A program made the translations under genes and the position numbers. Under the pieces are notes generated by a model, which saw nothing but the letters and a program-made list of their open reading frames with translations, was not told the origin of the DNA and ran no database searches. From Chitinibacter sp. SCUT-21 (GTDB lineage: Bacteria > Pseudomonadota > Gammaproteobacteria > Burkholderiales > Chitinibacteraceae), in the NCBI GenBank assembly GCA_041874755.1, contig CP102611.1, forward strand, positions 2,418,001-2,482,000: a stretch of 64,000 bases of DNA, given 5' to 3'. Shown in pieces: positions 32,402 through 38,720 of this stretch (position 1 is the first letter of the stretch; the number at the start of each line of letters is the position of its first letter).

Positions 32402-32731
32402 TTAGTTCCAACGGTCTTTACGGATTTCACGGCGAATTTCGCGGCGGGCTTCACGACGCTCTTGGCGAACTTCGCGCTCGGCTTTGCGTTTGGCTGAGCG
32501 CACTTCACGCGCACCTTCGCGAATCGCTTGGCGACGCTCCCACGCGTTATCGGCTTCGTAAAAATCTTTCGCGGCTTCGCGGCGCTCGGCAGCCACTTCG
32601 CGCGCACCGTCAATCTTGGCTTTGGTAACTTCCCGCACTCCATCGCGGTAGGCATCGTGAACGCTGGCTTGGCTTTGGGTGGCAGTCAGCCCGATCAATA
32701 GGGTGGCAATCAGGGTAAGAATGCGTGACAT
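32402..32731 (-). CDS. small exported highly charged helical protein
   Basis: A 109-residue protein from the ATG at 32731. A signal peptide (MSRILTLIATLL to SQA) is followed by a mature chain that is nearly all Arg, Glu, Ala and Lys. Repeated REV/RRE segments such as GAREVRSAKRKAEREV suggest one long charged helix. It ends four bases before the next small exported gene. No family is recognised. A periplasmic structural or nucleic-acid- or polyanion-binding role is possible but speculative. Confidence 0.65.
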   Translation of the reverse strand: MSRILTLIATLLIGLTATQSQASVHDAYRDGVREVTKAKIDGAREVAAERREAAKDFYEADNAWERRQAIREGAREVRSAKRKAEREVRQERREARREIRREIRKDRWN

Positions 32732-32829
32732 CTGTGGCTCCAATATGCTTTTGGCAATAAGCGGCATCATAGGGGCGCAAGATGGTGGGATGAATCGTTT
32801 GTGCGGTTTCGCACAAACGATTTAATGCG

Positions 32830-34303: not shown

Positions 34304-34936
34304 ATGTTGTGGTCTGAAGCGATTGCTTTGATTCGCCGCCGCCGTACACTGGCGCTGGCGAGTATGTCGGCGCAGATGCCCGGTTATCCGCATGTGTCTT
34401 GGCTGCCTATGGTGGCCGATGAGGCTGGGCGACCATTGTTGGTGATGAGCCGTTTGGCCGAACACACCCAAAATATTCTGCAAGACGCCAAGGTCAGTGT
34501 GTTACTGCATGAGGAAGAGATGGCGCTAGATAAAGCGCGCCTCACTATTGTGGGGGATTTGCAGCCCGCCACGCTCGATGAGCTGCTCGCCGCACGCTTG
34601 GCGCGTTACAATCCTGAATTAGCCAGTTATCTGCAAATGAGTGATTTTGCAGTGTGGCGCTTGTGGCCGCGCCGTGCGCGGTATATCGCCGGTTTTGGCA
34701 AAATGGGCTGGATCGAAGGCGAGCAGTGGGAAAGTGCTTTTGCGCTCAGTTTGCCGCAAGAAGCACAATTAATCGCCGAATTTAGCCCCGCCACGGCATT
34801 TGAGCTGGTGGGAGTTGATCTCGGTGGCTGTGATTTGCGCCGCGATCAAGTGTTGCAACGTTATGAGTTTGCACAAGCTGCCCGCAGTATTGATGAAGTT
34901 ACAATGGCGCTAGAACAATTATTGCAAGGAATTTAA
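34304..34936 (+). CDS. HugZ-like pyridoxamine 5'-phosphate oxidase-fold protein
   Basis: A 210-residue protein with a split-barrel flavin/heme-binding fold and a C-terminal extension. PHVSWLPMVADEAGRP and LVMSRLAEHTQNI match the barrel. RYIAGFGKMGWI is characteristic of the heme-utilisation HugZ/CREG-like branch. HugZ proteins degrade or bind heme; the histidine-rich C-terminal heme motif is not obvious here, so the activity is uncertain. AGGAG lies five bases before the start. It sits four bases before rstA, so they are probably cotranscribed. Confidence 0.8.
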   Translation: MLWSEAIALIRRRRTLALASMSAQMPGYPHVSWLPMVADEAGRPLLVMSRLAEHTQNILQDAKVSVLLHEEEMALDKARLTIVGDLQPATLDELLAARLARYNPELASYLQMSDFAVWRLWPRRARYIAGFGKMGWIEGEQWESAFALSLPQEAQLIAEFSPATAFELVGVDLGGCDLRRDQVLQRYEFAQAARSIDEVTMALEQLLQGI

Positions 34937-34940
34937 TCGA

Positions 34941-35669
34941 ATGAGCACGCGCGTTTTATTTGTGGAAGATGATGCTGATCTGGCCGAATTGATCGGTGGC
35001 TTTTTGCGCTCGTTTGAATTTTCGGTTGATGTTCTCAGTGATGGTAATGGTGTTATCGACAGCGTGAGAGCCAATCCGCCCGAGTTGATTTTGCTCGACA
35101 TTATGTTGCCCGGCAAAGATGGATTAACGCTGTGTCGTGAGTTGCGCGAGTTTTACGCCGGCCCGATTATTTTGCTGACCTCGCTCAATAGCGATATGAA
35201 TCAGATTTTGGGTTTTGAAATTGGCGCGACCGATTATGTGGTGAAAACCACGCCGCCATCGGTGTTGCTGGCGCGCATACGTGCGCACTTGCGCCATGTC
35301 GGCCAAAAAGGCTCGGATTTGATTGCCTCGGCGCCGGCGAAAGATCAATCGGTACTCAATTTTGGCAAACTACAAATCGACGCGCGCAATCGCAGCTCGA
35401 AATACCGCGGCCAGCCTATGGGTCTGTCGACCAGCGATTTTGATTTGCTGTGGGAGTTGGCCAGCCACGCCGGTGAAATTCTAAGTCGCGATCATTTGCT
35501 GAAAAAACTGCGCGGCATCGAATACGATGGCTTGGATCGCAGTATGGACGTAGCGATTTCGCGTTTGCGTAAAAAGCTCGATGACGATCCGCTGGATCCG
35601 CTGAAAATCAAAACCATCCGTAACAAGGGGTATTTGTTTGCGGCCGATATTTGGTGGCAAGAAGAGTAA
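34941..35669 (+). CDS. rstA: two-component response regulator RstA
   Basis: A 242-residue OmpR-family regulator. The receiver has the acidic pair D11/D12 after VLFVE, the phospho-acceptor D53 in LLDIMLPGKDG, T80 and K102. The stretches GPIILLTSLNSDMN and VVKTTPPSVLLAR are close to E. coli RstA as I remember it. The C-terminal winged helix carries LSTSDFDLLWELASHAGE and SRLRKKLDDDP. In enterobacteria RstA responds to low pH or low magnesium and activates the acid-shock gene asr. Here rstB follows after a 187-base gap that holds a repeat element, and an Asr-like gene follows rstB. Confidence 0.92.
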   Translation: MSTRVLFVEDDADLAELIGGFLRSFEFSVDVLSDGNGVIDSVRANPPELILLDIMLPGKDGLTLCRELREFYAGPIILLTSLNSDMNQILGFEIGATDYVVKTTPPSVLLARIRAHLRHVGQKGSDLIASAPAKDQSVLNFGKLQIDARNRSSKYRGQPMGLSTSDFDLLWELASHAGEILSRDHLLKKLRGIEYDGLDRSMDVAISRLRKKLDDDPLDPLKIKTIRNKGYLFAADIWWQEE

Positions 35670-35856
35670 GATACGCGGCGGGGTATGTTGTTTTTTGCCA
35701 TTGCAGTTCTCGGCAAAGCCGAGCCCTAGAGTTAATGCTGTCGACTGCCGCCTTATGTTCTATTCCCACACCCCCCGCCCTCTCCTGGAGAGGGGACCTC
35801 GCTGCGCGAGTTGATGTGAACTGAATGGATAGCAATGCAATGATTGAAATGAGTCC
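35670..35856 (+). other. rstA-rstB spacer with repeat element
   Basis: A 187-base gap inside what is normally a tight two-gene operon. Most of it is the three-hairpin repeat at 35708-35810. Only about 45 bases remain before rstB. Confidence 0.6.
35708..35810 (+). repeat. dispersed three-hairpin repeat, copy 1
   Basis: A roughly 100-base element. It opens with the hairpin CTCGGC-AAA-GCCGAG, has a variable middle, then CTATTCCCAC, a hairpin of CTC and GAG runs around CCTGG, and a final CCTCGC/GCGAG hairpin. The same modules in the same order occur inverted at 44246-44360. It lies between rstA and rstB. Confidence 0.75.
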
Positions 35857-37161
35857 ATGATGCGCCAGGTTTTTATTCGCTTTTATCTCACCGTGGTGCT
35901 GTGCTTTTTGGTGTCGTCTTTGCTGATTGGCGGTTTATACAAGCAAATGATCGAGCGCACCAATCAGCGTTATTTGAGCGATATGTTTTTGTCGACCGTT
36001 TCGCTGATCGAGAAAGAGCTGGGCGATTTGCCGCAATCGATGTGGCACGACGAAGCTTCGCGCCTGCGCGGTAAATTGCCAGTGCCGGTGGATATTGAAT
36101 CGCTCGATGCGTATGTGTTGTCACAAGAAAACCAAGAATCGCTCGAGCGCGGCGATATTATTCTGCTGAAAGATCGTGGCCTGTATTTGCACCGTATCCA
36201 CCAAACCAAGCAAATGGTGGTGTTGGGCCCGATTCCGTTCTTGCAGTCGCTCGATGGCATTTCCTGGCCCGATATTTTGGCGCTGGTGCTGATGTGTTTG
36301 GCGCTGGGCATCCCAACCTGGCTGTGGTTACGTCCATTTTGGCGCGATTTGATTCAAGTTATTCGCCAAAGCCGTCGCCTGGGCGCGGGCGATTTTAGCG
36401 TACGGGTGAATTTGGAAGACAGCTCGCCCTTGGCGGCGCTGGGCTCAAACTTTAACCGGATGGCGCATGATGTCGAAGAATTAACCGCCTCGCGCCGCGC
36501 GATGATCGATGCGGTGTCGCACGATTTACGCACGCCATTAGCGCGCTTGCGCTATCGCCTTGAAGCCATTAAAGCGGGAGCCAATAGCCAATCGCAAGTT
36601 GAAGGGATCGAGCGTGACTTGGGGCAAATTGACCAGTTGATCGACGAATGGCTAACGATGTCTAGCCTTGATAGCCCGCAATTGCGTATGGAAGTGCAGC
36701 CCTTGGAAATTGTACCGTGGCTACAACGCTTGCTGGGTGAATACACGCTCGATGGTGCAGAGCCGACATTTGAGAATACCACCGGGCAAGAAAGCCCGCT
36801 ATTGGATGTTGATAGCTATTACTTTGGTCGCGCGGTGGGCAACTTGCTGTCGAATGCGCGTCGCTATGGCGGCAAACAAATTCATGTGACTTTGCTGTGG
36901 CAAGACGGCACAGCCACTTTACACATTGACGATAATGGCGACGGTATTCCCGTTGAAGACCGCGCCCGCTTGCTGCAACCCTTTACCCGCCTGGAAGGTA
37001 GTCGCAATAAAGCCACAGGTGGTTTTGGTCTGGGTTTGGCGATTGTGGCAATGATTATGCGTGGCCATGGTGGCGCAGTCAGCATCTTAGATGCACCCAG
37101 TGGTGGTGCGCGTTTAAGCCTTACGTGGCCTACGCCGATGCGTTCAGTCGACTCACTGTAA
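35857..37161 (+). CDS. rstB: two-component sensor histidine kinase RstB
   Basis: A 434-residue membrane kinase. N-terminal helix about 8-27 (FYLTVVLCFLVSSLLIGGLYK), short periplasmic domain to about 135, second helix about 138-158, HAMP (about 160-210), HisKA with H222 in AVSHDLRTPLARLRYRLE, and ATPase with an N box in the 330s and GGFGLGLAIV. The opening, the WLRPFW after the second helix and the RTPLARLRYRLE stretch agree with E. coli RstB as I recall it. It should phosphorylate RstA. The start may be either of two adjacent Met codons. Separated from rstA by a repeat-bearing spacer. Confidence 0.9.
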   Translation: MMRQVFIRFYLTVVLCFLVSSLLIGGLYKQMIERTNQRYLSDMFLSTVSLIEKELGDLPQSMWHDEASRLRGKLPVPVDIESLDAYVLSQENQESLERGDIILLKDRGLYLHRIHQTKQMVVLGPIPFLQSLDGISWPDILALVLMCLALGIPTWLWLRPFWRDLIQVIRQSRRLGAGDFSVRVNLEDSSPLAALGSNFNRMAHDVEELTASRRAMIDAVSHDLRTPLARLRYRLEAIKAGANSQSQVEGIERDLGQIDQLIDEWLTMSSLDSPQLRMEVQPLEIVPWLQRLLGEYTLDGAEPTFENTTGQESPLLDVDSYYFGRAVGNLLSNARRYGGKQIHVTLLWQDGTATLHIDDNGDGIPVEDRARLLQPFTRLEGSRNKATGGFGLGLAIVAMIMRGHGGAVSILDAPSGGARLSLTWPTPMRSVDSL

Positions 37162-37191
37162 GAACATGTAGTAAGGTGTAATCAAATTACG

Positions 37192-37205
37192 TACTTTGCG
37201 TTACA
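37192..37205 (+). promoter_or_regulatory. putative RstA-binding box
   Basis: TACTTTGCGTTACA matches the E. coli RstA consensus TACATNTNGTTACA at 10 of 12 specified positions, with the GTTACA half intact. It lies about 106 bases before the Asr-like start codon. A -10-like CATAAT (37248-37253) stands about 50 bases downstream. Consensus taken from memory of the published E. coli box. Confidence 0.5.
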
Positions 37206-37310
37206 CAATCTCACTAAGTATGTAGTGCAGGAATATTACCAAAACCGCATAATCCGCCGCGTTGAAGCATTCACGTTGAATGCCGTTAAAGATTATTGCG
37301 GAGTTTTAAG

Positions 37311-37829
37311 ATGAACAAGATCGCTGCTGGCGTTATCGCTACTGTATTTGCTGCTGCTTCAGTTTTCGCTGTTGCAGCTCCTGCTAAGAAAGCTTCTGAA
37401 GCTTCTAAAGCGTCTAAAGTTGCTGTTGCTTCTAAAGCTTCTGCTGCACAAAAAGCACAAGCTAAAGCGGCTTCTAAAGCTTCTGTAGCGTCTAAAGCTT
37501 CTGCTGCACAAAAAGCACAAGCTAAAGCAGCGTCTAAAGCTTCTGTAGCATCTAAAGCTTCTGCAGCACAAAAAGCACAAGCTAAAGCGGCTTCTAAAGC
37601 TTCTGTAGCGTCTAAAGCTTCTGCTGCACAAAAAGCACAAGCTAAAGCAGCGTCTAAAGCTTCTGTAGCATCTAAAGCTTCTGCAGCACAAAAAGCACAA
37701 GCTAAAGCGGCTTCTAAAGCTTCTGTAGCGTCTAAAGCTTCTGCTGCTCAAAAAGCACAAGCTAAAGCAGCTTCTAAAGCTTCTGTAGCTTCTAAAGCAT
37801 CTGCAGTTAAAGCTTCTGCTGCTAAATAA
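37311..37829 (+). CDS. periplasmic Lys/Ala/Ser/Gln repeat protein, Asr-like
   Basis: A 172-residue exported protein; the ATG at 37311 has GGAG seven bases upstream. A signal peptide (MNKIAAGVIATVFAAASVFA, cleavage near AVA-AP) precedes six near-identical 20-residue repeats with the core AAQKAQAKAASKASVASKAS. The repeats use only Ala, Lys, Ser, Gln and Val, so the mature protein is strongly basic and has just one Glu. E. coli Asr is likewise a small, basic, periplasmic protein with AQKAQAAKK-type repeats, is induced by acid through RstA, and neighbours ydgD. Here rstA-rstB lie upstream, a YdgD-sized protease gene downstream and an RstA-like box in front. Homology through low-complexity sequence is uncertain, so the identity rests mainly on context. 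Confidence 0.65.
   Translation: MNKIAAGVIATVFAAASVFAVAAPAKKASEASKASKVAVASKASAAQKAQAKAASKASVASKASAAQKAQAKAASKASVASKASAAQKAQAKAASKASVASKASAAQKAQAKAASKASVASKASAAQKAQAKAASKASVASKASAAQKAQAKAASKASVASKASAVKASAAK
37441..37800 (+). repeat. 60-bp tandem repeat array inside the Asr-like gene
   Basis: Six 60-base units. Units alternate between two versions, and the 120-base block 37501-37620 is repeated without any difference at 37621-37740. This indicates a recent in-frame duplication. The array length is therefore likely to vary between strains. Confidence 0.95.
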
Positions 37830-37854
37830 TCTAGAATTTATTTCTAGCTTAGAG

Positions 37855-37881
37855 AAAAGGACGGCTTGCCGTCCTTTTTTT
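37855..37881 (+). terminator. intrinsic terminator after the Asr-like gene
   Basis: AAAAGGACGG pairs with CCGTCCTTTT around a CTTG loop, followed by further T. It separates the repeat-protein gene from the protease gene 24 bases on, so the protease is either read through or independently transcribed. Confidence 0.9.
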
Positions 37882-37904
37882 ATGGTGGCTTGAAAGGATA
37901 AATC

Positions 37905-38720
37905 ATGAAGCGTTGGGTAATTGCGGTGCTGGCTCTGTGGCTCACTTTGCCTGTTAGGGCCGAGGACGAAGCGCAAATTCAAAAAGAGCGCTTGGCGCTA
38001 TTTTTTGGCCACGATGACCGCATCAATATTCCTGCGCCGTATGCTGCACCGTACAATGCGATTGGTCGGCTAGAAGTCAAATCGGGCGGCACGTGTACTG
38101 CAACCTTGATTGCACCTGATTTGGCGATCACTGCGGCGCATTGCTTTTTGATGACCCCGCGTAAAATTGATGCCGGTCGCTGGTTTATGGCTGGTTTTCA
38201 TGACGGTAAATATCAGGCGCGCTATCAAGTCACTGGCCAAGTATTTCATCCTAAATTTCGCCAAGGTCTGCGCTATGAGGGTGACGATGTCTATATCGAG
38301 CCCAGTGCTGCACCGTATGATATTGCGGTCATGAAGTTGAAATTGAAAGACGGCCAAGCACCAGAGCCGATGCCATTTTTTCAAGGCAGCCGCAAACAGC
38401 TAATGCAAACGATTTTGCGCGCCGAGCAGCAAATTAATCAGGGCGGGTTTGCCGAAGACCACGATACGATTTTGTCTGCGCATTTGGGCTGCACGCTAAC
38501 GCAGCTACGGCGCAATGGCACGATTTTCCATCGCTGCGATACCTTGTCGGGCGATTCGGGCTCGCCGATTTGGCTGGATTTGCCAACTGGGCCGACTTTA
38601 ATCGCGGTGCAAAGCTCTGCGCCTGATTGGTTTAATCGCAAGCTGGCCGACAATGTGGGCGTGACGGTGCTGCAATTGCCGCCTGCTGCGCGCAAATTGA
38701 TGAAAAATACAGGCCAGTAA
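37905..38720 (+). CDS. secreted trypsin-like serine protease, YdgD-like
   Basis: A 271-residue S1-family serine protease with a signal peptide (MKRWVIAVLALWLTLPVRA). The catalytic triad is H79 in ITAAHC, D139 in PYDIAVMKL and S218 in GDSGSP. Cysteines near each (64/80, 196/211) could form the usual disulfides. The active protein should be periplasmic or secreted. Length and context, next to an Asr-like gene and rstAB, recall E. coli YdgD, a putative S1 peptidase encoded beside asr. Processing of the repeat protein is a natural hypothesis but is not shown by sequence. Confidence 0.88.
   Translation: MKRWVIAVLALWLTLPVRAEDEAQIQKERLALFFGHDDRINIPAPYAAPYNAIGRLEVKSGGTCTATLIAPDLAITAAHCFLMTPRKIDAGRWFMAGFHDGKYQARYQVTGQVFHPKFRQGLRYEGDDVYIEPSAAPYDIAVMKLKLKDGQAPEPMPFFQGSRKQLMQTILRAEQQINQGGFAEDHDTILSAHLGCTLTQLRRNGTIFHRCDTLSGDSGSPIWLDLPTGPTLIAVQSSAPDWFNRKLADNVGVTVLQLPPAARKLMKNTGQ

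Follow-up and report, generated by a model that had tools for sequence, protein, structure and literature searches.

An rstAB, asr-like and ydgD locus in Chitinibacter and its possible role as a compact envelope stress module

Do the RstAB two-component system, an Asr-like repeat protein and a YdgD-type protease belong together in betaproteobacteria? The question is raised by four adjacent genes of the chitin-degrading bacterium Chitinibacter sp. SCUT-21 (GenBank assembly GCA_041874755.1; family Chitinibacteraceae), whose genome is complete (3.45 megabases). They lie in a stretch of 64,000 nucleotides of contig CP102611.1 (positions 2,418,001 to 2,482,000, forward strand), which is called the window here. 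The initial annotation described them as a possible acid-stress module. This description was largely right. Judging from sequence, the locus is very probably an RstAB-controlled Asr-type envelope stress module. The observed basis is the gene order, a conserved RstA box, the joint presence and absence of protease and repeat protein, the identity of YdgD and a set of intermediate Asr proteins.

Gene order and gene identity

All four genes lie where the initial annotation placed them, on the + strand. The features of the locus, in window coordinates, are the following.

34941 to 35669, +: rstA, OmpR-family response regulator RstA, 242 residues, assigned by NF007977 and by identity to E. coli RstA
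35857 to 37161, +: rstB, probable sensor histidine kinase RstB, 434 residues, assigned by best model NF007898 and position after rstA
37192 to 37205, +: RstA box TACTTTGCGTTACA, with 2 mismatches to TACATNTNGTTACA, assigned by motif match and family conservation
37213 to 37217, +: ACTAA, counterpart of a conserved ACCAA (+21 to +25) and probable third RstA half-site
37248 to 37253, +: CATAAT, putative -10 hexamer at +56 from the box start
37311 to 37829, +: asr-like gene for an exported Lys/Ala/Ser/Gln repeat protein with six QKAQ cores 20 residues apart
37855 to 37881, +: terminator-like hairpin between repeat gene and ydgD, assigned by family-wide hairpin conservation
37905 to 38720, +: ydgD, exported trypsin-like serine protease, 271 residues, assigned by PF00089, PF13365, fold, tree and catalytic triad

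The gap from the end of rstA to the start of rstB is 187 base pairs (bp). The repeat gene starts at the ATG at 37311 and encodes 172 residues; the mechanically called reading frame opens at a TTG at 37296.

The gene order was compared across 43 genomes of the window's family. RstA was present in all 43, with rstB immediately 3' of rstA each time. The protease was present in 38, and these 38 contained rstA, rstB, the repeat gene and ydgD together. A Lys/Ala-rich exported gene follows rstB in each of them. It was a complete frame in 30 genomes. In five others the contig broke off within its repeat, and the protease lay near the end of another contig; in three the gene was masked or gapped in the repeat with a readable start. 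The remaining five genomes, from two genus-level groups, contained neither the repeat gene nor the protease, and proA follows rstB in them. They form one group on the RstB tree, which points to one joint loss. The linkage that had been proposed is thus conserved. The compact locus of regulator, effector and candidate protease was confirmed as well; it is not special to this genome and is the usual arrangement in two families.

The second of these is the family of genome G117. It is probably the Chromobacteriaceae; Paludibacterium, Crenobacter and Craterilacuibacter are among the protease relatives. RstA was retrieved from 60 of its 61 genomes at an expectation value (E) of 1e-75, and YdgD from 44. 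The usual order is again rstA, rstB, asr-like gene, ydgD. The asr-ydgD or the rstAB locus was read in 56 genomes, in some of them only as the end of asr plus ydgD. RstA matched more weakly in four of the 61 (G027, G570, G572 and G579) and not at all in G559; all five were without ydgD at the search threshold. No Asr-like gene was found among the listed frames at the RstA-like locus of G027. In two loci (L145 and L146, from G551 and G552) rstAB is divergent from asr-ydgD, and a perfect RstA box lies between them on the asr strand.

Across the class, RstA was retrieved from 12 of 369 genomes at E 1e-75, and only the window's own genome exceeded the curated cut-off. The protease search at E 1e-20 returned that genome alone (1/369), a threshold too strict to show the distribution.

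Enterobacterales are represented in the neighbourhood comparison by E. coli. In E. coli K-12 the order is asr-ydgU-ydgD. The claim that asr and ydgD are neighbours there was borne out, with ydgU between them. As in the window, ydgD is downstream of asr; the window has no gene between the two. The rstA gene of E. coli lies 9.4 kilobases beyond ydgD, whereas rstAB adjoins the repeat gene in the window.

Window RstA passes the NCBIfam RstA equivalog model NF007977 (340.8 bits; cut-off, 330) and is 55% identical to E. coli RstA. Its recognition helix reads DRSMDVAISRLRKK, compared with DRSVDVAISRLRKK in E. coli, and is intact in all 43 family genomes. The base-contacting residues of Klebsiella RstA (Arg199, Val203 and Arg207) are identical in the window and E. 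coli proteins, in a comparison with Klebsiella whose numbering offset of one was set by the analyst. The kinase is taken as RstB from its best model and its position only. Its best NCBIfam model is NF007898, and the next model scores 157.8 bits.

The protease contains the trypsin-like Pfam domains PF00089 and PF13365 and matched no NCBIfam model. Its two best named loci are Chitinibacter sp. GC72 and C. tainanensis. It is 39.5% identical to E. coli YdgD over residues 26 to 255. Its best PDB sequence match is 7uxg (1.3e-46; next match, 3e-6), which is titled a putative serine protease and whose sequence is that of E. coli YdgD. The predicted structure had a mean predicted local distance difference test (pLDDT) score of 93.4, and its best fold match was also 7uxg (6.9e-23). 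E. coli YdgD is thus the best match in sequence and fold, at 36 to 40% identity, and shares the triad. The catalytic His, Asp and Ser were present in 119 of 119 aligned relatives (120 of 444 matches plus E. coli provided the alignment). The site counted as 189 is Asp in 114 and Asn in 5 of the 119, which alone is insufficient to establish a P1 specificity for Lys/Arg. In the YdgD tree the window's family, the second family and the Enterobacterales each fall on one side of a branch (support 100, 91 and 99, respectively). The tree had 50 rows: each genus group contributed no more than three, and 12 named Enterobacterales proteins were added together with the E. coli protein. By sequence, predicted fold and tree, the protease is a YdgD orthologue. 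The phylogeny thus agrees with the annotation of a YdgD-like protease.

Promoter of the repeat gene

The RstA box described before is TACATNTNGTTACA, in which TACA half-sites stand in tandem (PMC4117788). In Klebsiella the box is a tandem of TACA-like half-sites (PMC4117788), and the contact residues of Klebsiella RstA recur in window RstA. In E. coli, the box is the site by which RstA binds to the asr promoter, and the signal is acid (PMC11135836), which bears out the earlier statement that RstAB activates asr there.

A box with at most two mismatches lies on the gene's strand, 100 to 124 bp before the ATG, in all 38 family genomes with the repeat gene. It was found in none of the rstB-proA gaps of the five genomes without the gene (0/5, same threshold). 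The 38 promoters were aligned on the box. GTTACA is invariant, as are A at +21, C at +22 and A at +24, and ATAAT at +57 to +61 is kept in 35 to 38 promoters. In the asr promoter of E. coli the box lies 117 bp upstream of the start codon, followed by AACCAA (+20 to +25) and a TATAGT hexamer (+56). Box, ACCAA-like element and -10 hexamer are therefore spaced as in the family. The E. coli RstA box is placed at -77 to -55 in PMC9026648, which is consistent with the -10 assigned here. This register is common to Enterobacterales and two betaproteobacterial families, which shows over what evolutionary distance a regulator and the promoter it targets can remain matched.

The third element is TACC or TACA in many relatives and lies 10 bp past the second half-site. 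The RstA sites comprise two, probably three, half-sites, the third at +20. No third half-site is described for the Klebsiella box in the excerpt of PMC4117788, and the element at +20 is proposed here. The combined box and ACCAA pattern gave 23 matches in the 43 whole genomes, 23/23 of them in repeat-gene promoters, and the reversed control gave none. This strict pattern fails in 15 of the 38 promoters, the window's included. A search of the window's own genome with TACNTNNNGTTACA returned two sites, one of which is the repeat-gene promoter. The other (G000:C1:2249385-2249398, locus L135) reads TACATTTGGTTACA and lies just 3' of a 326-codon reading frame.

In the second family, 32 of the 34 promoters that could be read have a box with at most two mismatches, 122 to 140 bp upstream, compared with 14 of 840 random ATGs. 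These control ATGs were drawn from the same loci and include the surroundings of the real promoters. Promoters were unreadable in 10 of the 44 genomes with YdgD. Of the two promoters that failed, that of G565 reflects a wrongly placed start; a perfect box is present there.

A minus-strand box with one mismatch (37157 to 37170) was considered and set aside. Just three of the 38 relatives have a similar site at this position, and all three belong to the window's genus. The PhoB site of the E. coli asr system has no evident conservation in the family promoter alignment, as read by eye. A general scan for promoters and terminators returned no sigma-70-like promoter, and the hairpin at 37855 to 37881 was not on its list. 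Terminator-like hairpins at the junction of repeat gene and ydgD were found in 38 of 38 family genomes and in 5 of 380 mononucleotide shuffles; the site chosen for G137 is doubtful. In genome G013 (L098:218) a perfect RstA box lies just 5' of rstA, and no asr-like gene was found among the listed frames after rstB. This box possibly reflects autoregulation.

Repeat protein, KAQ core and proposed mechanism

In the repeat gene a 60-bp unit recurs 6.6 times (92% matches). The peptide encoded by its six QKAQ-centred units is the same 20 residues each time, and the units differ from one another at five codons, all synonymously, which points to selection on the protein or recent copying. The 150 residues past residue 22 contain 31 Lys, no Arg, no His and one Asp/Glu, and no Phe, Trp, Tyr, Ile, Leu, Met or Cys. 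The protein thus has the traits of the Asr functional family: it appears exported (by eye, from the N-terminus), is basic, is without bulky residues and has the QKAQ core. E. coli Asr similarly has a signal peptide, a Lys/Ala/Gln-rich mature part and QKAQ cores. It differs in having two cores and His, compared with six cores in a 20-residue repeat and no His in the window protein. One relative's repeat protein has up to 21 cores.

By sequence comparison, the Asr proteins of the second family are intermediate between the window protein and E. coli Asr. One of them, from G567, carries APAQKAQALKKHHK, and the E. coli counterpart is APAQKAQAAKKHHK. In alignments tested against shuffled sequences, the window protein scored above composition with the second-family protein of G557 (z score 2.7), and G557 did so with E. 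coli Asr (z 3.0). Among nine proteins tested against E. coli Asr, four exceeded composition (z 2.7 to 4.1). Those not above it included G074 (0.70) and three proteins from genomes without YdgD (0.13 to 0.46). The Pfam Asr model PF06392 recognized E. coli Asr at 2.2e-12; second-family proteins reached E 1.4 to 2.5, short of the cut-off. The probable homology of the repeat protein to Asr is argued from intermediates, position and promoter, not from direct similarity. Because the window protein has no Pfam Asr match, it is named Asr-like and not a PF06392 member.

Asr has been listed for related betaproteobacteria before, in two copies for Laribacter hongkongensis and for Chromobacterium violaceum, in 2011 (PMC3135505, Table 8). 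That table gives presence only, and the excerpts consulted contain nothing on rstAB, ydgD or the promoter. These entries mean that Asr in betaproteobacteria is not new.

E. coli Asr is cut twice, and the second cut falls after QKAQ, near residue 58. Among the 80 genomes in which YdgD is present and Asr could be read, 76 have a KAQ core, mostly QKAQ. It was present in none of the 17 YdgD-less genomes whose rstAB locus was read. Five of these 17 have no Asr, ten have a short Asr-like protein (57 to 78 residues) without the core, and two have at most a divergent remnant. The count excludes G099, whose repeat is masked or gapped, and G529, whose contig stops too soon, and G566, G561, G563 and G564 were entered from sequences read directly. 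This association across genomes is new here. Joint inheritance suggests that YdgD processes the repeat protein. On the RstB tree YdgD changes at least three times and KAQ five times. The tree had 69 rows (43 from the window's family, 25 from the second family, and E. coli), with 31 second-family loci excluded for a missing or short RstB. One genus-level group without ydgD (L137, L138, L140, L142 and L160 to L164) has rstAB followed by an exported Lys/Ala protein of 57 to 74 residues without KAQ. A box with two mismatches is kept in three of these nine loci and not in six.

To our knowledge, no protease has been named for Asr, and no substrate of YdgD was found in the literature searched. Joint inheritance ties these two gaps together. 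In the open-licence literature we found no paper that names RstA, asr and ydgD together and, among the entries listed, no account of this locus. Two papers name both YdgD and Asr; PMC13339887, one of these, treats them separately.

The explanation that we favor is an RstAB-Asr-YdgD module in compact form, with YdgD cutting Asr at the KAQ cores, and as a whole it is likely. RstB would sense an envelope signal, which is low pH in E. coli according to the literature, and would phosphorylate RstA. In the gap between rstB and the repeat gene, RstA would occupy two and probably three half-sites spaced by 10 bp. This would switch on a promoter with its -10 hexamer 56 bp past the start of the box. The encoded protein would be a secreted, Lys-rich, unfolded Asr-type protein that may shield envelope proteins as a disordered chaperone, as described for Asr in PMC10746267, citing Ren 2022. 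The terminator after the repeat gene would probably pass only part of the transcription on to ydgD, so that substrate would outnumber protease. Exported YdgD would then cut the Asr precursor at the (Q)KAQ cores. We give processing of an Asr-type precursor by YdgD an even chance. In a bolder form, YdgD would be a dedicated maturase that cuts every (Q)KAQ core and releases many identical short polycationic chaperone peptides per precursor. Core and protease would be coevolving as substrate and enzyme in Enterobacterales and in both betaproteobacterial families alike, with repeat number setting the dose. This polyprotein reading is doubtful.

Several observations weigh against the favored explanation, and they bear on three rivals. 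The repeat protein may have no common origin with Asr and, as an exported protein of low complexity, may have acquired its Lys/Ala/Gln repeats by convergence behind an RstA-controlled promoter. It matched no Pfam or NCBIfam family, and PF06392 did not match it even at E 10. Its shuffled alignment with E. coli Asr gave z -0.75, with 405 of 500 shuffles equally good, and that with G074 (z 0.1) was not above composition. Neither Pfam nor shuffled alignment therefore gave a signal of direct homology. The neighboring ydgD and the promoter register are nonetheless those of E. coli asr, and intermediates such as the G567 motif, with the links from the window through G557 to E. coli, connect the proteins. 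Convergence on an Asr-like form is unlikely, and we regard a repeat protein wholly unrelated to Asr as quite improbable. The module could instead answer a different signal at the envelope, such as low Mg, metal, cationic peptides or phosphate, with the repeat protein acting chiefly as a polycation, for example covering anionic lipopolysaccharide, rather than as an acid chaperone. RstB is just 35% identical to E. coli RstB, sits on a long branch and is below the NF007898 cut-off (461.2 bits; cut-off, 478). The repeat protein has about 30 positive charges and one acidic residue, and its paralogue in the same genome is linked to a CopR-like two-component pair. However, the promoter and the contact residues of the regulator are conserved with E. 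coli, where RstA-driven asr is acid-induced (PMC11135836, PMC10746267). Asr is among the most strongly acid-induced proteins there, at about 1,000-fold at pH 4.4 (PMC10746267). A different signal is thus conceivable and rather unlikely.

The closest rival concerns YdgD. It may serve the same stress response independently, as a periplasmic quality-control protease that lies beside asr for coexpression, with the repeat protein processed by others or unprocessed. YdgD stands alongside an Asr without the KAQ core in 4 of the 80 genomes (G561, G563, G564 and G565), which are one genus-level group. Because the genomes are related, there are few independent events; about three lie behind the association of KAQ and YdgD. 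At most three independent pairs were available, two or three of three in the same direction, which is not significant (p 0.25 to 0.5). Deletion of ydgD affects acid resistance of E. coli, more strongly at pH 8 than at pH 5.5 (PMC13339887). Should YdgD have a P1 preference for Lys, it would shred a Lys-rich substrate rather than mature it. The loss of protease and KAQ-type Asr together in both families argues against this rival, as does G568, where the Asr stops immediately ahead of the core still present in its sisters G567 and G569. The separate-protease account falls somewhat short of an even chance.

Paralogues and neighboring genes

A second QKAQ-repeat gene occurs in the window's own genome, far from the window (L167:1528-4001; G000:C1 from about 2006027). 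The order there is QKAQ-repeat gene, small exported protein, CopR-like response regulator, sensor kinase. The paralogue and its CopR-like set are also present in G004, G126, G123 and G127; with the window's own genome, this makes five of the nine paralogue loci read. Upstream of the paralogue in G000 and G004 there appears, by eye, a GATTAA-AATG-GTTAATC-like palindrome. Unlinked asr paralogues were found in other genomes. Those at L171 and L175 (G138 and G137) have a perfect TACATTTGGTTACA box, and those at L173 and L174 (G145 and G148) have, by eye, a box variant containing GGTTACA. These sites suggest RstA regulons with several asr copies.

The window also contains a gene for a pyridoxamine-oxidase-fold protein with weak similarity to HutZ/HugZ (34304 to 34936, +). 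It ends 4 bp 5' of rstA, and it adjoins rstA in only part of the window's family. A second small, exported, highly charged protein, rich in Lys, Arg and Glu, is encoded at 32402 to 32770 (-) according to the frame list.

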